A model generated the notes under the pieces. That model saw only the letters and a program-made list of their open reading frames with translations. It was not told where the DNA came from and made no database searches. A DNA stretch of 33,854 nt. It comes from Paramuribaculum sp. GTDB taxonomy: Bacteria > Bacteroidota > Bacteroidia > Bacteroidales > Muribaculaceae. Both the position numbers and the translations under genes were made by a program. The DNA lies in assembly GCA_029052015.1 (NCBI GenBank), contig JAIDJW010000161.1, forward strand, positions 1-33,854, in the 5' to 3' direction. Below, in pieces: positions 8,853 to 21,591 of the stretch. The number at the start of each line of letters is the position of its first letter. Position 1 is the first letter of the stretch.

Positions 8853-8925
8853 CGCGGAGTAGAGCAGCCGGTAGCTCGTTGGGCTCATTTCCCAAAGGTC
8901 GCAGGTTCGAGTCCTGCCTCCGCCA
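8853..8925 (+). tRNA. initiator-type tRNA-Met(CAT)-like gene with unusual anticodon loop
   Basis: The 73 bases fold as a cloverleaf. The acceptor is CGCGGAG/CTCCGCC with position 1 unpaired (C1-C72, as initiators leave 1-72 open). The D arm GAGC/GCTC has A11-U24. The anticodon stem TTGGG/CCCAA has the three consecutive G-C pairs of initiators, and the T arm is GCAGG-TTCGAGT-CCTGC. The anticodon is CAT (8886-8888), but the loop reads CTCATTT, so positions 37-38 are T-T rather than the usual A-A, and CCA is not encoded. It lies between the divergent late operons. It may be a working phage initiator tRNA, or a tRNA mimic with another role. Confidence 0.8.
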
Positions 8926-8962
8926 CAACAATCAGGTATTATGTAAGAAAGATTGAATAACC

Positions 8963-14679: not shown

Positions 14680-15018
14680 ATGGAAAAGGTTAACAACACC
14701 CCTAAAGTATTTAACGGCGACCTGACAGAAGCACAGGTCAAGGCGTTCAAGACCCAGCACCGCAAGAGCTTCGCGGTTGAAATCCAGGACGGCAACGAGG
14801 TTCATATCGGCTATTTCAAGCGCCCCACTCTGGAGACTCTGAAAGCTGTAACCAAGGTTGCAAAGAGTGATGAAGTGGAAGCCGGTAAAGTGATGTTCGA
14901 CAACTGCTGGCTGGGAGGCAGTCAGGAACTGCGCACCGATGCGCTACTCTTCATGGCGGTTCAAAAGAAGTTGGGCGAAGTGCTCAACAGCTTCCAGGGT
15001 CTAATAAAAAACTTGTAG
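14680..15018 (+). CDS. tail-assembly chaperone, short form (G analogue)
   Basis: This 112-residue helical protein lies between tube and tape measure, the place of lambda G and Mu gp41. It ends at TAG 15016-15018 just after a slippery heptamer (A AAA AAC, 15006-15012), placed in the correct phase for a -1 shift. The shifted frame would add a 'T' extension, as in lambda gpGT, that helps the tape measure assemble. The motif 'HIGYFKRPTLETLKAV' (about 46-61) and a small helical C-terminus fit the family. The extension is interrupted by the mobile element 100 bases downstream. Confidence 0.75.
   Translation: MEKVNNTPKVFNGDLTEAQVKAFKTQHRKSFAVEIQDGNEVHIGYFKRPTLETLKAVTKVAKSDEVEAGKVMFDNCWLGGSQELRTDALLFMAVQKKLGEVLNSFQGLIKNL
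15006..15012 (+). promoter_or_regulatory. programmed -1 ribosomal frameshift site
   Basis: The heptamer A AAA AAC fits X XXY YYZ with zero-frame codons AAA and AAC of the chaperone gene. Slipping by -1 leads into a frame open through 15134 now, and through the second half at 21469-21591 before the element inserted. The zero-frame stop is 2 codons later (15016). Confidence 0.7.
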
Positions 15019-15134
15019 AGGCGCACACATTGGCGGAGTCTGACGAAGAGGACGGCTTCGCCAAGGGGTGCGCCCTGATCCGCGCTAATCTGCACGTTGA
15101 TATTGATAAAATAAGGGAACAATATACATGTTGA
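15012..15134 (+). pseudogene. chaperone T extension, left half, truncated by the mobile element
   Basis: After a -1 shift the frame reads LVEAHTLAESDEEDGFAKGC and continues to ...HVDIDKI. At 15115 it enters the element and gains only REQYTC before a TGA at 15132-15134. Joined to 21469-21588 across one copy of the target duplication it would give about 74 extension residues, so the ancestral long form was about 185 residues. Confidence 0.7.
15107..15114. repeat. 8-bp target site duplication, left copy
   Basis: taaaataa abuts the left terminal repeat and is repeated exactly at 21462-21469 after the right terminal repeat. Eight bases is the usual duplication length for the IS1595 family. Confidence 0.9.
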
Positions 15135-15139
15135 CCTAG
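15115..15139 (+). repeat. left terminal inverted repeat of the element
   Basis: The 25 bases match the reverse complement of 21437-21461 without mismatch. They begin GGG, as IS1595-family ends often do. Just inside (15191-15220) the motif attgctaaag/attgctagag occurs as a direct repeat and may be a subterminal transposase site. Confidence 0.93.
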
Positions 15140-15244
15140 CTATAATTTACTAATAAATATCAGAATATCCAAGAGAGGGTTGATATCTAAAGCTAGAAAT
15201 TGCTAAAGATTGCTAGAGGATTCCAGAGCTATTGATCTTTCTAG

Positions 15245-15252
15245 TATATTTG
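15245..15252 (+). promoter_or_regulatory. promoter element of the transposase gene
   Basis: TATATTTG matches TAnnTTTG and lies 14 bases before the ATG at 15267, giving a very short leader. No clear -33 box is visible. Confidence 0.45.
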
Positions 15253-15266
15253 TCACAAATCAATAA

Positions 15267-16217
15267 ATGACAGATATTATGATGCAAAATATAGGTTTAG
15301 ATAAGTTCAATTCTCTTTTTTCCTTGGTTACATATTTCAAGGATGATGAAACTTGCAAAGAGTTTCTTATAAAACAGCGTTGGTCTGACGGTGACGTTAT
15401 CTGTCCTTATTGTGGCAAACACCACTGCAAAAGACGTTCAGACGGTCGTTTCCGTTGCTCTCAGTGCCTTCGTAATTTTTCTGTTTTGGTAGGTACTATC
15501 TTTGAAAATACCAAGATTTCACTTGTTAAATGGTTTATTGCCATGTATCATATCTCTTCACACAAGAAAGGTATATCAAGTCATCAGTTAGCAAGAGATT
15601 TATCCATTACTCAAAAATCAGCATGGTATATACTACATAAAGTACGTACACTTTTCGGTCAGGAATCAACCACTGAATTAACTGACAACGTAGAATGCGA
15701 TGAGGCTTATATCGGTGGTCAGGAGAAGTACAAACATGCTTCAAAGAAAACCAAGGGTACACAAGGTCGTTCTCTTAAAACAAAGACTCCTGTTTTTGGT
15801 ATGGCAGAACGTAAAGGTAAGGTTGTCGCAAAGAAAACATCGAATAATAAAGGCAGAACCTTATGTAGCTTAATCAATCAGTTTGTGAAAGCTGGTTCAC
15901 GTATATTCACTGATGAATATATTGGCTACAATACACTCGTAAAGTCAGAATATACCCATTCGGTTGTAAATCATGGTGCAAAGCAGTTTGTTGATGGAGA
16001 TGCACACACCAATACGATTGAAGGCTTTTGGAGTCAGCTTAAACGTTCAATCTTTGGCATCTATCATTTCGTATCTGCCAAGTATCTTCAAAGATATGTG
16101 GATGAAGCTGTATTCAGATACAATACTTGCAAGTTGGATGAGTCTGACAGATTTAAGAAGATGTTTCTTAAATCAATTGGAATTGTTAGATATGATGATG
16201 TGAAAAATGTGGCTTAA
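15267..16217 (+). CDS. IS1595/ISXO2-type DDE transposase
   Basis: This 316-residue protein has an N-terminal zinc ribbon with Cys47, Cys50, Cys64 and Cys67 (CPYCG ... CSQC), then a helix-turn-helix region (about 100-125), then a DDE/N-type catalytic domain: Asp145 in 'ECDEAYIGG', Asp216 in 'FTDEYIGY', and 'HTNTIEGFWSQLKR' (247-260) with Glu252. This is the signature of the ISXO2-like IS1595 family. Length is normal and all catalytic residues are present, so it is probably active. It reads away from the left terminal repeat and against the passenger genes. Confidence 0.95.
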   Translation: MTDIMMQNIGLDKFNSLFSLVTYFKDDETCKEFLIKQRWSDGDVICPYCGKHHCKRRSDGRFRCSQCLRNFSVLVGTIFENTKISLVKWFIAMYHISSHKKGISSHQLARDLSITQKSAWYILHKVRTLFGQESTTELTDNVECDEAYIGGQEKYKHASKKTKGTQGRSLKTKTPVFGMAERKGKVVAKKTSNNKGRTLCSLINQFVKAGSRIFTDEYIGYNTLVKSEYTHSVVNHGAKQFVDGDAHTNTIEGFWSQLKRSIFGIYHFVSAKYLQRYVDEAVFRYNTCKLDESDRFKKMFLKSIGIVRYDDVKNVA

Positions 16218-16259
16218 TTGCTTGAGAATTTCCCTTGGGAGGAGTATATTTATAATAAA

Positions 16260-16281
16260 AGGCACAGTTTACACTGTGCCT
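16260..16281 (+). terminator. terminator after the transposase gene
   Basis: A 9-bp stem (AGGCACAGT with ACTGTGCCT) with a 4-base loop lies 42 bases after the transposase stop, followed by a T-rich stretch (gtacatctttt). It would separate transposase transcription from the converging passenger genes. Confidence 0.6.
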
Positions 16282-16320
16282 GTACATCTTTTAGAGATTT
16301 GTGCTAGCCTCTCTATAAAA

Positions 16321-16452
16321 CTATGAAATAAGACTTCTCCGAAGTCGCCTGCAAAAAGAGTTTACGTAAAACTTAAGACCCTTACAAGATGTGCGATAAT
16401 GGTCAATCACGCTCACAGGCTTGTCTTTCGATTTACACTTACAGCGTGCCAT
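16321..16452 (-). CDS. possible 43-residue Cys/Lys-rich peptide in the transposon cargo
   Basis: The frame encodes MARCKCKSKDKPVSVIDHYR and continues to ...FCRRLRRSLIS. Cysteines at 4, 6, 23 and 34 could bind metal. It lies on the same strand as the other cargo genes. The first 30 residues look protein-like, and the Arg-rich end may be the out-of-frame remainder of a longer gene. I do not know a family, and it may be a remnant. Confidence 0.35.
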   Translation of the reverse strand: MARCKCKSKDKPVSVIDHYRTSCKGLKFYVNSFCRRLRRSLIS

Positions 16453-16553
16453 AGTTTAAACTTATTTTTTGGTGAAGTCGCATTGCTGAAAATACTATTC
16501 ACTTATTTTAGTTGAGACACCTGTGCATGTATTGCAAGGCAAAGTAACAAAAA

Positions 16554-16583
16554 AGCATCAATAGTTCCAAGACTATTGATGCT
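16554..16583 (-). terminator. terminator of the passenger operon
   Basis: A perfect 12-bp stem (AGCATCAATAGT with ACTATTGATGCT) with a 6-base loop lies just after the stop of the proline-rich peptide (minus-strand sense). A T run follows on the minus strand (ttttttgtt). Confidence 0.7.
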
Positions 16584-16602
16584 TAATTTTGTTAAAAGTG
16601 GA

Positions 16603-16728
16603 TTAGTCTAATAAGGGGATTTTAGTGCCAGGCTCAGGTTTAGGCTGTGGTTTTGGAGGTAACGGCTGTGGCTTGGGTGTAGGTTTAGGGAAGATGATAT
16701 CTTCATTTACCTTCTTCTTATCACTCAT
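16603..16728 (-). CDS. 41-residue proline-rich small protein in the transposon cargo
   Basis: The frame reads MSDKKKVNEDIIFPKPTPKP, then a PKPQP/PKPEP-type repeat, then GTKIPLLD. The Pro-Lys/Pro-Gln repeat should form an extended polyproline rod. It lies 95 bases after the membrane protein gene and just before the strong terminator at 16554-16583, on the passenger strand, which supports it being a real last gene of that operon. Function unknown. Confidence 0.55.
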   Translation of the reverse strand: MSDKKKVNEDIIFPKPTPKPQPLPPKPQPKPEPGTKIPLLD

Positions 16729-16823
16729 GATTGTTTGGTGATTAGTGTCTCTAACTCAAAAGACAGTGAAACTTATAGTACAAGATAAGAGTTAATCTGA
16801 ATAGCTTCAGTTATCTTGAAATA

Positions 16824-17243
16824 TTATTTTAGATTATCGTTGTATTTATCGTATTGATCACGATATTCAGGTGAATTTCTGTATTTTTCAAGACGATATT
16901 CGTTGTACCATTGTTCTTCTCGTTCTCTTCTCTTATTATCACATAATATTTGCAAGAAGACTTCAAGCACTGTAAAAATGATACACAATATCCAAAGAAA
17001 CTTCTTTTTCCTGTAAAAGAATAAGCCAAATCCAATCCACATTATAGGAATGGTAATAAATACCATAGGATTAGCAAATTCGTAGTTTGGGACAATGGAA
17101 CCCATTACAACATATATGAATGGGATAAGACAAGCTGCACCTGCAATTTTCATCCAACGTTTTGAGTTGGAGTAATGACAACATAAGGCAATCCACACTA
17201 TGTTCACACATAGATAAAGAATAAACCAAAAGAAGGCGTTCAT
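16824..17243 (-). CDS. multi-pass membrane protein in the transposon cargo
   Basis: This 139-residue protein has about four hydrophobic helices (residues about 2-22, 31-49, 58-76 and 82-101), followed by a highly charged cytoplasmic tail rich in Tyr, Arg, Asp and Asn (about 103-139). It is A+T-rich. I do not recognise a family. In phages and mobile elements proteins of this shape include holins and superinfection-exclusion factors, but nothing in the sequence decides this. It is preceded by a 345-base stretch with a promoter-like motif and a long hairpin. Confidence 0.6.
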   Translation of the reverse strand: MNAFFWFILYLCVNIVWIALCCHYSNSKRWMKIAGAACLIPFIYVVMGSIVPNYEFANPMVFITIPIMWIGFGLFFYRKKKFLWILCIIFTVLEVFLQILCDNKRREREEQWYNEYRLEKYRNSPEYRDQYDKYNDNLK

Positions 17244-17304
17244 AGATTAATACATGGCAAACGTTGACCCTACGAATGCATTTAAGCAGTTTATAACAAT
17301 AGGC

Positions 17305-17557
17305 ACAAAAAGAAAGTGTGAGCCAAGATCGCTGTTATCTGACTGGTTGGCTCTGGACTGCCATGAATATAGATAACAATAGTGGCTCACACTCTTGGCG
17401 TTTATATGTGTAAGTACATACGTAGCTACCAAGAGGGAGCATCTTACTGCCATTCCATATTCAGTTGAATTGTCCAGATTCTACCAGTCGGAATGAAGCA
17501 AAACGCTTCCTTAATATGTCTGCAAGACGGTTTCTCTCATCTTGCACCGCAAAGTTA
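17305..17557 (-). ncRNA. candidate structured RNA or long leader in the transposon cargo
   Basis: Between the tape-measure-like gene and the membrane protein gene, the minus strand has a promoter-like TAACTTTG (17550-17557). About 160 bases later comes a long stem: agtgtgagcca at 17315-17325 pairs with 17383-17393, and tgttatct at 17333-17340 pairs with agataaca at 17371-17378. A T-rich run follows (ttctttttg on the minus strand). This looks like a small RNA of roughly 240 bases with its own terminator, or a long regulated leader of the membrane protein gene. No convincing protein is encoded in it. Confidence 0.35.
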
Positions 17558-17588
17558 ATAAAATATCTTGAATGTTATGATATTAGAC

Positions 17589-20500
17589 TTAAACAAAATT
17601 CACAGAAGCTCTTGTATGGAACATCTTGCTTTGTCTTCCACCATGTACGTTATCATCAATTTGAGTAAGTATAAGATCTGTAATTCGTCTTATGAACATT
17701 GGGTCTGTTTCAATAAGTTTTGAAATATCTATGCTTTTGCCATCAGTATTCAATCTAAGGTCTCCATGAATATTTATATCTATGGATTGCTTTTCATTTT
17801 GGGAAGAGATTGTTGAATTAGTCTGTTTAATGGTATTTACAATCTCTCTCGTTGGCATCTCATAGTTCATTGCCTTGGGTAGTATCTCAGACACTTCATT
17901 TATTTTAGCAAATACACCATTGAATAAAGTATCAAATGGACCACCAGTCTTTGCAAATATAGCAGAGTCCTGTGGGTCTGTCTTGGCTAATTTGACTGAA
18001 CCATCATGAATTGGTGTAACAGATGATGCTGCAACTGTCATTGACTGACCATTTGCAGACATTGTTCCATCTTTAGTATATATAGGTGTGGTATCGAACC
18101 CGTCAGAATTAAATCTTTTATCCCATTTATCTTTTGTTATTCTTGCTTTTGCTACAGCACTTTCATCAGACATAAAAAAACCACGAAACCAATCTCTTAC
18201 TTGTGCTGCAACATTACGTTTTTCAGCTTTAGCCCTATGAAACATCAACATAGCACTACTAATTTCCTTGTCATTATCGTAGTTCTCAATATCATTTCTT
18301 GTTCTAACTTGATTTCTTCCTTCTTGACTACTCCTTTCTAAAGCATCTTTATCTGCCGTTTCTCTCCATTCATGAGGAAGGATTTCGTAAATAGCCTCAA
18401 GTTTACTTGCAATTGTTGGTAAAGACTTAAATGATTCTTTTTGTTCTTTCAATGCTTCAGCACGATTCATAACAATAGCTTTTACTATCTCACTTTCATT
18501 ATTAGTATATGCTTCAAGCATTGTCTGCACACTTTTTTCTGCTGTATCTGCAAAATTCACAAATGTATCAGCGCCCAAGATAGCTGCAATAGTTTTAGTT
18601 GCACTTTCAATCTTTTCAACAGATGACAGGGTACTTTGAGCATAACGACTCATATTTTCATCTGAGTTATCTGAAAGTATATTTTGAAGGTCAGCAGAAG
18701 TTATGGTACTAATGTCTTTAGTGGAATTATCCAACATATTAACCATCCATTTTCCTGTTACTGCATCTCTATGTGCCTTATTCGCCACAGCATCCATCTG
18801 CTCACTTGAAAGGTTTGAATTATGAACTTGTCTACGTATAACAGCCTTCTTGTTGTCTTCACGTATCATGTCCTTGGCATCTTCAACTGACATTCCAAGT
18901 GCTGAGGCTGCATTACGTATTAATAATGTATCAGTTCCATTAAAGGTGGTTTCTCCTGTTGTCTTATCATAAGTGCCTAAACCTTTGAACATACCTTTTG
19001 TTCTCTTGGCGTATGCATCTGGATCATTTAGGGACTCCCACATCATGGCAAGAGGATCGGAACCCATTGCAAAATGACCTCCAAGTACTTGAAGTTTTGC
19101 GCTTGTTTCAACTGTACCTTCAAGACCACCACTTTGAATTTTCTCTAACATTCCACCAAGTGAACTAAGGTTGAATCTCACATTCTCAGCCCATTTTGCA
19201 AGCTCAATGAAACCTTTTGAACCATTCTTGAAATCATACTTGTTGGCAAGTTTAAGATTACTGAGAACGTTCTTGGTTAACTTCTGCTGAGATAACCCCA
19301 TCTTATTTGCATAATTGTACATATCATACATTATGTCAGCAGATGATGAAACAGACTGATTAAATACATTCATTTGTGCTGAAAATTGAGTAAATGTATC
19401 ATCACCAACAAGTCTACCTACAGCAAGTGATTTTTCCATATCAGAGTTACTGAAATTGACATTTCTGCCACTTTGTTGGATAAAATCAGTTTGAAGTTTT
19501 ACTACATCTTCAATGGTCTTGTTATAGTGTGCAAAGGTCTCTGCCTGTGTAAGCATTCTCTTTTCATATACCATAGTCTGTTGAACTGTCAACCCATTCT
19601 GAGCCTGATATTGATGAATGGCTTTATCTTGCTTACGAAGGTAGTCATCTGTTAATTTAGTAAATTCATTGGCTTGTTGTATAAACTTCTGTGCATTGGC
19701 TAATCTTGTTTCAGCATATTTCTGTTCAATCTCTAAGGCAGCTTCCTGATATTTATTGACTTCACCCCAAATTGGTATCCAATTAGTCCATGTGTTAGCC
19801 ATTTTTAGATTTGCAAGTGTTGTGGCATTCTGAGACTGTAATAATGTCATTTGGCTATCTAATGCCAAATCCTGAGATGTATATGCACCAGATAGAGAAT
19901 CTTGCCAAGAAGCAACATTAGCCTTTAACTGATTTAATGAAACCTGAGCTACAGCATTCAGCTCTCTTAATGTGTTTTCTGCATTAAGTTTCATATATTC
20001 AGTAGACTTACCAATGCCAAACTCAACAGCTTTAATAAGACCTTCAGCTATCATCATATAAGGATTGCCTTTCAAACCTTTAAGTCCATTAGCCATATTA
20101 GCGAATTTTCCGCCACTTGAAATAGCACTGATAGCCTTATTCTTGTTATTCAAAGCAGTAATATCACCCATAGCAATCCTACGACCAAACAGTTTGTCAA
20201 AACGCCTGTTTGCATTATCTCTTTTGGTTTCAGCCTCATCACGTTTACGAGCATTGACATCACGTTTGGATTGCTTGTCAAGAAGCTCACGCTGTTTCTT
20301 GTCAATCTCACTTTGAATTCTGTTTCTGTTTTGCTGAGTAGTGGCATTATTCAAATGACCTTGCAGATTACTGATTGAGTTGGTAAGCTTCTGAATCTCT
20401 TTATCACAATCTTCTACAATGTCTTTATGCTCTTCATAGGCTTTATCCATATCATCAAAGGTATCAATCAAGTCCTCTGCTTTATCAGCCATCTCTTTTG

Positions 20501-20615
20501 ACACACCAATCTCTCTGCGAAATACCTCTTTCGCTTTATCCATCTTACCACTCTTATTGTCAAGTGCATTTAAAGCACCTTCCAAGTTTGAAAACAATCC
20601 ACCAATATTTGCCAT
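17589..20615 (-). CDS. tape-measure-like protein of a foreign large myovirus, carried by the transposon
   Basis: This 1008-residue protein has a highly charged coiled-coil N-terminal part (about 1-150), a Gly/Ala hydrophobic patch (about 165-200), a long helical middle with Gln/Asn/Ala heptads (about 210-400), a segment with 'GLEGTVETSAKLQVLGGHF' (about 505-523) and a C-terminal part with a beta-rich 'DINIHGDLRLN' (about 945-955). Size, helical composition and the adjacent T4-gp26-like gene fit a tape measure of a large Bacteroidales phage. It shows no resemblance by eye to the prophage's own tape measure at 21814. It starts 3 bases after the previous gene. The call is from architecture, not from a search. 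Confidence 0.6.
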   Translation of the reverse strand: MANIGGLFSNLEGALNALDNKSGKMDKAKEVFRREIGVSKEMADKAEDLIDTFDDMDKAYEEHKDIVEDCDKEIQKLTNSISNLQGHLNNATTQQNRNRIQSEIDKKQRELLDKQSKRDVNARKRDEAETKRDNANRRFDKLFGRRIAMGDITALNNKNKAISAISSGGKFANMANGLKGLKGNPYMMIAEGLIKAVEFGIGKSTEYMKLNAENTLRELNAVAQVSLNQLKANVASWQDSLSGAYTSQDLALDSQMTLLQSQNATTLANLKMANTWTNWIPIWGEVNKYQEAALEIEQKYAETRLANAQKFIQQANEFTKLTDDYLRKQDKAIHQYQAQNGLTVQQTMVYEKRMLTQAETFAHYNKTIEDVVKLQTDFIQQSGRNVNFSNSDMEKSLAVGRLVGDDTFTQFSAQMNVFNQSVSSSADIMYDMYNYANKMGLSQQKLTKNVLSNLKLANKYDFKNGSKGFIELAKWAENVRFNLSSLGGMLEKIQSGGLEGTVETSAKLQVLGGHFAMGSDPLAMMWESLNDPDAYAKRTKGMFKGLGTYDKTTGETTFNGTDTLLIRNAASALGMSVEDAKDMIREDNKKAVIRRQVHNSNLSSEQMDAVANKAHRDAVTGKWMVNMLDNSTKDISTITSADLQNILSDNSDENMSRYAQSTLSSVEKIESATKTIAAILGADTFVNFADTAEKSVQTMLEAYTNNESEIVKAIVMNRAEALKEQKESFKSLPTIASKLEAIYEILPHEWRETADKDALERSSQEGRNQVRTRNDIENYDNDKEISSAMLMFHRAKAEKRNVAAQVRDWFRGFFMSDESAVAKARITKDKWDKRFNSDGFDTTPIYTKDGTMSANGQSMTVAASSVTPIHDGSVKLAKTDPQDSAIFAKTGGPFDTLFNGVFAKINEVSEILPKAMNYEMPTREIVNTIKQTNSTISSQNEKQSIDINIHGDLRLNTDGKSIDISKLIETDPMFIRRITDLILTQIDDNVHGGRQSKMFHTRASVNFV

Positions 20616-20618
20616 ATA

Positions 20619-21305
20619 TTACTCAAAACTATTTATCTTATTTAATTCAGTGAACAAAGAATCATCAATGGCAATATCAATACCATTAAAGTCAATATCA
20701 GGATTGGTAGTGATTATGTATTTCAAGAAGTTTTCTGTTTGCATCTCACTAAGATTATGTATATATTCTTTAATCTCTGATTTTGATTCACTGCCATTGT
20801 AAGAGACAATACACTCAAGCATAATGGCTGTTTCCATTTCATCTGTATTATCCTTTAACTTTTCAATAATTCCTTGTTCATCAGAATGTGTCAGGAGACG
20901 ATATTTTATAACATCGCCATTATCTAATAAATAGCTGAAATAGCCATTTTCATCACCTTTAAGATTGAAATCCTTATATTTAAGTGTTGAAAGGTCTATT
21001 TCCTGATTAGTAGTAGGATTTACTATTGTATCACTATAACCTGTACGTCTGAGCCATACTAATATGGCATTTCTATCTCCAACACAAAGAGTGTCAGGAT
21101 TAAAGTCTTTATCAAGAATTTTAAGCCTTAAAAGTTCATCACAAACAGTCTGTGATAAGATATATTTAGATGAAACCATGATATTTTCATCAATGGCTCT
21201 AAGATAGCCAACAGGCACTCTTGACTTTTTATGTGGATAACATTCACCTTTGCTTGGCAATTCTACCCATTCATAATCTACATTTTCAATAAGGTTTTCT
21301 AACAT
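20619..21305 (-). CDS. T4 gp26-like baseplate / tail assembly protein of a foreign myovirus, carried by the transposon
   Basis: This 228-residue acidic protein has a start 'YEWVELPSKGECYPHKKSRV' (11-30) that fits the T4_baseplate family, in which 'ELPSKG-x-x-YP' opens the protein. It continues with 'YLRAIDENIM' and 'DTLCVGDRNAILVWLRRTGY', also usual for that family. Members help assemble the baseplate or tail of T4-like and other large phages and lie just before the tape measure, as here (3-base gap). It is the first gene of the passenger operon and begins 132 bases inside the right terminal repeat. Confidence 0.7.
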   Translation of the reverse strand: MLENLIENVDYEWVELPSKGECYPHKKSRVPVGYLRAIDENIMVSSKYILSQTVCDELLRLKILDKDFNPDTLCVGDRNAILVWLRRTGYSDTIVNPTTNQEIDLSTLKYKDFNLKGDENGYFSYLLDNGDVIKYRLLTHSDEQGIIEKLKDNTDEMETAIMLECIVSYNGSESKSEIKEYIHNLSEMQTENFLKYIITTNPDIDFNGIDIAIDDSLFTELNKINSFE

Positions 21306-21362
21306 TTATAGAAACAAGTCTTTTCTATAAATATAGGTGGATAGAAGAGTGTTATCAAATAA

Positions 21363-21394
21363 AAATGCCACCAAACTATAAAATGGCGGCATTT
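21363..21394 (-). terminator. hairpin just inside the right end of the element
   Basis: AAATGCC-A-CC pairs with GG-C-GGCATTT around a 12-base loop. On the minus strand a T run follows, so it would stop transcription entering from the right, upstream of the passenger operon. The A-C mismatch makes it moderately strong. Confidence 0.4.
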
Positions 21395-21436
21395 GAAAAA
21401 AGTTAAAAATTGTCTTATCTTTATGACAGAATTATA

Positions 21437-21461
21437 CTAGGTCAACATGTATATTGTTCCC
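21437..21461 (-). repeat. right terminal inverted repeat of the element
   Basis: Exact inverted copy of 15115-15139, ending in CCC against the right target duplication. Confidence 0.93.
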
Positions 21462-21469: not shown

Positions 21470-21591
21470 AGACGGAGGAGGAATGGGCACAACTCTATTG
21501 CGAGGCTGTATGGCTGGAGCGGTGGAGAAACCGAAACCGGGCGGAGCTTATCGCTACACTATTCTCCGGAACCGGAGCGGCAAGCCGATGA
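21469..21591 (+). pseudogene. chaperone T extension, right half, cut off by the mobile element
   Basis: The frame reads KTEEEWAQLYCEAVWLERWR and continues to ...SGTGAASR, then TGA at 21589-21591. It has no start codon of its own. It is in frame with 15012-15113 when the element and one duplication are removed. The Trp/Glu/Arg-rich helical content fits the C-terminal half of a tail chaperone long form. Confidence 0.7.

Follow-up and report, generated by a model that had tools for sequence, protein, structure and literature searches.

The window analysed here, by which we mean the whole contig of 33,854 nucleotides (JAIDJW010000161.1) from the 2.35-Mb genome of a Paramuribaculum species (210 contigs), contains an intact 6,347-bp transposon of the IS1595 family (positions 15115-21461), which lies inside a Mu-like prophage and carries two phage tail genes on its opposite strand, one for a short T4-gp26-like baseplate hub protein (gp26s) and one for a tape-measure-like protein (TMP). 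A second element of the same transposon family, in an uncultured Prevotellaceae genome, carries such a pair as well, and both the origin and the recurrence of the transposon-borne tail pair are well supported. Sequence comparisons suggest that the family has very probably shuttled between large T4-like phages and Bacteroidales hosts. Overall, the explanation that we favour, with some reservation, is that of a transposon moving between phage and host which holds a phage tail module that would be silent until infection and might then disturb tail assembly.

An earlier note on this DNA had described perfect 25-bp terminal inverted repeats, exact 8-bp duplications and one intact DDE transposase with its zinc ribbon, all of which we confirm. 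The 25-bp ends are identical and, with up to three mismatches allowed, are matched twice in the window and never in 100 shuffles; the duplications were recovered by a pair search. The transposase matches Pfam DDE_Tnp_IS1595 (PF12762; 1.3e-46, 158.8 bits, cut-off 27) and in its N-terminal part Zn_ribbon_IS1595 (PF12760; 1.5e-07, 31.7 bits, cut-off 25.4), and the opposite-strand open reading frames (ORFs) of 228 and 1008 residues lie where they had been placed. The parts of the element have a GC content of 0.31-0.42 as compared to 0.47-0.53 in the prophage, and a search of the window's own genome with the first 115 nt of the element matched its own two ends only. The IS1595 family comprises the groups IS1016, ISPna2, ISH4, IS1595, ISSod11, ISNwi and ISNha5, and passenger genes occur in some of them. 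According to a published account (PMC8101967), the traits of the family include a DDE domain, a zinc ribbon in all groups but IS1016, an 8-bp duplication and terminal inverted repeats. The window element has all four of these; it differs in that its passengers include virion assembly genes preceded by a phage-type promoter motif, and in that its branch of the family lives in large virus contigs.

The prophage covers much of the window; terminase, portal, head, sheath and hub-like proteins were recognised among its ten proteins scanned, and we retain the earlier description of it as Mu-like. The element splits a frame that continues a 112-aa ORF in another reading frame. This interrupted frame is probably the extension of a tail-assembly chaperone, since it sits just before the prophage's own tape measure gene; the PHROG match of the 112-aa ORF itself is to a family of unknown function. 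The left flank was found in 14 of 247 genomes of the host's family, the window's own included. In ten of the eleven related prophage loci compared, two of which come from one genome, the two flanks meet with at most a few bases' difference; the eleventh gave a match to the left flank alone. Because the flanks adjoin in these relatives, we regard the insertion as probably recent and the cargo as foreign to the prophage. This agrees with the earlier note: the empty sites that it proposed to look for exist, and the cargo, being absent from the related loci compared, is not native to this prophage family. By themselves the uninterrupted sites show a past insertion only.

The cargo operon starts with the gp26s gene, which lies 3 nt upstream of the TMP gene. 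The gp26s protein is 32% identical to the annotated baseplate hub subunit (246 aa) of the Flavobacterium phage immuto (MW353176), related hub genes were found in eight IMG/VR loci, and a wider scan yielded 70 hub loci, of which 11 lie on contigs 225-393 kb long. Three of the four hub homologues scanned score above 24.5 bits with Pfam T4_baseplate (36.2 for the hub of the Prevotellaceae element, locus L047; 42 for the long hub of the phage contig L212; 30.5 for L003), the fourth (L204) has no match to this family, and all four match PHROG 150 (phrog_150, baseplate hub). A structure model of gp26s reached a pLDDT of 85.9 and a pTM of 0.82; a hub profile searched against the PDB sequences gave no match below E 0.037.

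In seven of the eight IMG/VR loci the first large gene behind the hub gene encodes a relative of the 1008-aa protein, three of the seven being near-identical, and the eighth contig ends there. These relatives were reached only via the hub neighbourhood: with the 1008-aa protein as the query, neither a single-protein scan of viral_contigs nor tblastn against phages returned a relative, and the protein has no TMP family match in Pfam or PHROGs and no PDB match. In phage immuto, too, an annotated TMP gene (1006 aa) comes after the hub gene, with a 36-aa ORF in between. Phage immuto thus resembles the cargo in having a standalone hub and then a TMP of about the same length, whereas it differs in being a 160-kb phage whose TMP is not recognisably similar in sequence. 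As the relatives of both large proteins are genes of phage tail clusters, the earlier claim that the cargo holds tail genes of an unrelated large myovirus stands, and a non-phage identity of both proteins is not what the searches give.

The closest TMP is that of phage contig L212 (160.5 kb), which is 41% identical over 944 aa with an additional 59-aa match at the C terminus, and in this nearest phage relative the gp26s and TMP genes stand in the same order as in the window. The L212 TMP has 1448 aa and carries an extra low-complexity stretch of about 430 aa composed of N/S/T/G-rich repeats. Among 74 loci, with both elements and some contigs that occur more than once counted in, L212 is the only one with two hub ORFs, a long one of 505 aa and then a short, intact one of 232 aa located 22 nt before the TMP gene. 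Since an intact short hub thus precedes the TMP of a phage, we dropped the idea that the short hub is a truncation that arose inside the element. Judged by these similarities, the cargo would most simply be a contiguous two-gene piece of an L212-type phage.

The second carrier, L047, is a 7,839-bp element on a 399-kb contig of the Prevotellaceae genome (Bacteroidales). It shows the duplication TTTGACAT, encodes a transposase 65% identical to that of the window, splits an ORF with a signal-peptide-like start, and carries genes for a 249-aa hub and an 1132-aa TMP, 22 nt apart; its hub and gp26s share 38% identity over 214 aa. Both carriers of the pair therefore sit in cellular DNA, one in a prophage and the other in a gene of a chromosome contig. 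A quick tree of 49 TMP rows, from which identical rows and TMPs under 600 aa had been removed beforehand, places the window TMP as sister to that of L212 and the L047 TMP as sister to that of L204 (943 aa), with a support of 100 each. A single clade of the two elements was rejected (approximately unbiased (AU) test, p 0.0099), and with it the idea that both TMPs descend from one captured pair; for the two transposases as one clade the p value was 0.07. Of two hub trees (cleared of identical rows and of hubs shorter than 220 or 200 aa), the second, which included the short L212 hub, left the short hubs of the window, L047 and L212 unplaced. The trees are unrooted and give no direction. As a separate observation, L047 has a second end-like sequence 106 bp inside its left end (7141 and 7247), suggesting nested or alternative ends.

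The transposon family itself is found in cells and in large viruses. Other copies with other cargo, which the earlier note had proposed to look for by their 25-bp ends, exist, and one copy, L047, has the same pair. Both ends were found in 15 of 24 cell-side sources; what they bound there is not only a short insertion sequence, as the elements are 1.6-7.8 kb long and their passengers are varied (one of the 15 has a mismatch in its duplication). The exact 25-bp end had no match in viral_contigs; a transposase profile scan of the virus contigs gave 132 relatives, of which the best 80, representing 79 loci, were kept. Family copies lie inside virus contigs of 130-412 kb, and four elements, in contigs of 235-412 kb (L112, L116, L119 and L121), have ends and duplications. 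Three virus contigs carry both a transposase and a hub gene, and in a 147-kb contig an element stands between a hub gene, with small ORFs intervening, and a gene that by eye resembles that of a tail sheath. The earlier suggestion that the cargo was picked up during a past stay in a large phage accordingly holds in outline, as the family sits in large virus contigs, in one case next to the gp26-like gene of a tail cluster. In a transposase tree of 42 rows cell-borne and virus-borne copies interleave, with at least seven changes forced by well-supported branches, and the two kinds of copies share passengers at 29-68% identity. Thirty elements were annotated, 15 cell-borne and 15 virus-borne, the latter picked from 49 virus loci scanned for ends (L102, L105 and L120 being counted as elements by their ends alone). 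One of 63 passengers other than the tail genes weakly matches a minor head protein family (0.00085).

Both tail operons carry the same motif in front of the hub gene, at -29 in the window and at -28 in L047. In 333 upstream regions of phage loci CTATTTAT was found 58 times as compared to 2.4 expected and TATTTATA 107 times as compared to 13.7 expected, mostly 21-50 nt before the ATG. Of 276 phage genes, 68 have [AC]TATTTATA between -56 and -22, where shuffles predict 1.9, as compared to none of 228 host genes (0.5 predicted). When the genes were filtered in another way, the strict motif was present before 76 of 331 phage genes, 0 of 267 host genes and 6 of 36 cell-borne passengers; the difference between the latter two is significant (p 1.9e-06), with both hub genes counted among the six. 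The relaxed motif distinguishes passengers (21 of 62) from transposase genes (0 of 21; p 0.001; strict motif p 0.06), and since some virus-borne transposases were probably counted as passengers the reported contrast is if anything diminished. Without the first-gene filter the strict motif occurs before 7 of the 40 cell-borne passengers and 4 of the 23 virus-borne ones. Six near-duplicate loci had been removed by hand before these counts. The consensus of the Bacteroidota -7 box is TAnnTTTG, and this host box separates neither transposase genes from passengers (p 1.0) nor passengers from host genes (p 0.53). Read on the other strand, the TATTTATA-type motif is the T4 late box TATAAATA, and we interpret the copy in the window as a phage late promoter that was retained with the cargo. 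In the phage loci L181-L237, [AC]TATTTATA is followed by an A-rich stretch before phage genes and is a probable late promoter of these large phages.

Why would a transposon carry the tail genes of a phage? We propose that the element, by means of its transposase, changes place within hosts and also enters and leaves large phages, and that the cargo is a block of phage DNA, most like that of an L212-type phage, which would comprise a terminator, a late-type promoter, gp26s and TMP. The host would read the phage-type promoter poorly and leave gp26s and TMP largely unmade. Upon infection a related phage would supply its late transcription machinery, so that the two proteins would be expressed and could compete with, or enter, the tail assembly of the infecting phage and thereby lower or alter its progeny. 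That infection triggers expression of the pair is what the promoter motif leads us to lean towards; that the cargo has an effect on tails is put forward tentatively, at less than even chances. The presence of virion assembly genes as transposon passengers, twice, in different species and with TMPs from different phage lineages, suggests recurring use over accident, and in the transposon family there is a vehicle linking large phages with Bacteroidales that can be traced.

A close functional parallel and the nearest precedent are the PLE satellites of Vibrio cholerae, which are reported (PMC12987554) to put their own TMP and baseplate hub in place of those of ICP1 and so give rise to chimeric tails. 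Like the window element, PLE is mobile and not a phage, and its TMP and baseplate hub resemble those that a large contractile phage has; it differs in that it is a satellite, travels in modified virions and has TAC, whereas the window holds a DDE transposon in which none of this was recognised. The hub families of PLE are likened to the window hub by kind and not by sequence comparison. If the cargo acts on tails, the element would be a simple DNA-transposon version of such PLE-type manipulation by TMP and hub. The Tab, Tai and Rta defences act on the tail assembly of infecting phages, with TMP as the reported target of Tab and Rta; likened here by description, they are inhibitors and not copies of TMP or hub. 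A literature search covering titles and the openings of abstracts found no paper on a transposon that carries TMP or hub genes. It appears unlikely to us that the element is an anti-phage or tail-piracy module, whose hub-TMP pair, kept under the late promoter of the phage, is turned on by an infecting large phage and supplies foreign parts that enter or block the tails of this phage, while the element takes up new TMPs from phages in circulation and travels from host to host in phage genomes. If so, a second lineage, unrelated to the first, would be added to the non-phage elements that interfere in tail assembly by means of a TMP and hub of their own.

Several observations weigh against this interpretation. 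The profile check of the 228-residue protein that the earlier note had proposed succeeded with the homologues and failed with gp26s itself, which matches neither T4_baseplate nor phrog_150 in the Pfam and PHROGs scans; its best Pfam match is the unrelated CTD1, below the cut-off (20 as compared to 25 bits), and its best PHROG is a family of unknown function. The TMP profile A7, which in a search of three sequences scored the window's own Mu-like TMP at 16 bits, does not match the annotated TMP of immuto (E 3), so that the name TMP rests on gene order. Since Pfam and PHROGs do not name the two window proteins directly, their identities follow from homologues and gene order. The pair is also rare: the hub profile was found in one of 397 family genomes, the window's own, and tail genes occur in only 2 of the 30 annotated elements, both cell-borne. 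The first hub tree joins the two elements (support 80, with long branches meeting), which would fit one shared origin of the hub. The promoter assignment is based on position and enrichment, not on transcripts, and a TTTG-N20-TATATTTA string that overlaps the motif could be a weak host promoter. Finally, the codon-position differences in the TMP comparisons resemble those of a phage-phage pair and do not separate evolution in the element from evolution in a phage.

The alternative that survives best is neutral hitchhiking, by which adjacent phage genes were captured without any role in the host, their frames being open through recent capture or an unsampled source phage. We consider this quite possible, though not the likelier account: the family carries diverse passengers, most of which have no family match, 13 of the 15 annotated cell-borne elements lack tail genes, and the third-position excess in the TMP comparisons is equalled by the phage-phage pair, so that no selection within the element is shown. 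Then again, a second species has the same pair, promoter position and adjoining noncoding segment, together with a TMP that belongs to another phage lineage, which hitchhiking would not readily explain. Less probable is a satellite-like piracy, in which hub and TMP of the element are built into chimeric tails that aid its spread, as with PLE and the tails of ICP1. The two protein kinds are the same as the PLE11 TMP and BhuB, the cargo has a phage-type promoter motif, large virus contigs harbour members of the family, and the TMP of the window is shorter than that of L212, although that of L047 is longer than that of L204. However, no replication, packaging, capsid or capsid-control gene was recognised among the ORFs of the element, and by jumping into a phage genome it would spread without need for tail proteins of its own; we therefore regard this reading as improbable. 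Slightly more doubtful still is a transfer of the pair from element to phage, which would make the TMPs of L212 and L204 transposon-derived. L212 alone has both a long and a short hub, with the short one directly before TMP, and unrooted trees are silent on direction; yet the L212 and L204 TMPs sit in tail gene clusters with no second TMP within the stretches fetched, and the terminator and motif before TMP are seen in other phage loci, too. An assembly or binning artefact that joined phage and prophage DNA, conceivable as the window is one contig of so fragmented a genome, is most improbable in view of the exact ends and duplication, the uninterrupted sites in relatives and the second carrier.

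Table 1. Features of the element, its surroundings and the corresponding phage genes (window positions unless stated otherwise).
Feature	Position	Strand	Basis
Prophage ORF (112 aa, 14680-15018) and left part of its other-frame extension, interrupted; probable tail-assembly chaperone	14680..15114	+	inferred
Target duplication, left copy, 8 bp, TAAAATAA	15107..15114	.	sequence, pair search
Left terminal inverted repeat, 25 bp	15115..15139	+	sequence search
TATATTTG, candidate host-type promoter box just 5' of the transposase gene	15245..15252	+	fit to TAnnTTTG
IS1595-family DDE transposase with zinc ribbon, 316 aa, intact	15267..16217	+	Pfam PF12762, PF12760
139-aa ORF, hydrophobic first half	16824..17243	-	ORF list; Pfam, PHROGs and PADLOC scans
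Structured noncoding segment, z -4.5	17290..17530	-	folding, comparison
Tape-measure-like protein (TMP), 1008 aa, intact	17589..20615	-	name inferred from gene order
Short T4-gp26-like baseplate hub protein (gp26s), 228 aa, intact	20619..21305	-	homologues, gene order
ATATTTATA, phage-type promoter motif, starts 29 nt before the hub gene	21326..21334	-	motif search
Terminator-like hairpin upstream of the motif, -15.8 kcal/mol	21363..21394	-	folding
Right terminal inverted repeat, 25 bp	21437..21461	-	sequence search
Target duplication, right copy, 8 bp, TAAAATAA	21462..21469	.	sequence, pair search
Right part of the interrupted other-frame extension	21470..21591	+	flank comparison
Long hub, short hub and TMP of L212 in a row	L212 5347-12183 (L292 11812-18648)		phage contig

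The remainder of the opposite-strand cargo (Table 1) calls for a correction of the earlier note: the hub and tape measure genes are of phage type, but this cargo is not shown to be phage DNA throughout, because in its part at 16824-17530 the 139-aa ORF has no family match at cut-off and the noncoding segment also occurs in host genomes of the family. For the 139-aa ORF there are two Pfam matches below cut-off, YfhO and RCR, and no match in PHROGs or PADLOC. The noncoding segment stands right after TMP in both the window and L047 (9572-9801), with 71% identity over 237 nt. It is about 220 nt long, 16 of its 51 predicted pairs have changes on both sides among four sequences, and it has no Rfam match at E 0.1. 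A scan of 119 family genomes found similar segments in 18, counting that of the window, often shortly before variable accessory genes; L013, L035 and L251-L275 are further loci with the segment. That the segment is specific to the transposon was considered and dropped, as none of 25 further loci, examined for about 1.5 kb on each side, has ends of the element. In L258, L259 and L271, the last of which is in the window's own genome (C179), a tyrosine recombinase-like ORF, recognised by eye, lies just upstream of the segment.

Some minor observations concern the family at large. Similar N-terminal stretches (MKKTIRLSESDLHRIVNESV or MKDIRTFITES) recur in passengers and phage proteins (L048, L050, L051, L053-L056, L059, L104, L111, L115 and L120), which are reminiscent of capsid-targeting leaders; because the counts of this motif are low (4 of 486 phage proteins, 7 of 78 passengers and 0 of 340 host proteins), we make no claim of a packaging signal. 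One of the 63 passengers matches the candidate defence family HEC-09 (5.4e-42), and four other PADLOC families are matched weakly, by one passenger each. Paired ends about 140-190 bp apart in several genomes (for example G276:C71:24498-24659 and G330:C5:59541-59698) are likely derivatives resembling miniature inverted-repeat transposable elements (MITE-like), genome G254 has 48 end matches, and the 3,962-bp element L056 (G382:C57) contains an extra end about 1.35 kb inside and is possibly an element within an element. In the window itself, a tRNA-Met gene (8853-8926) lies between two divergent halves of the prophage gene map.

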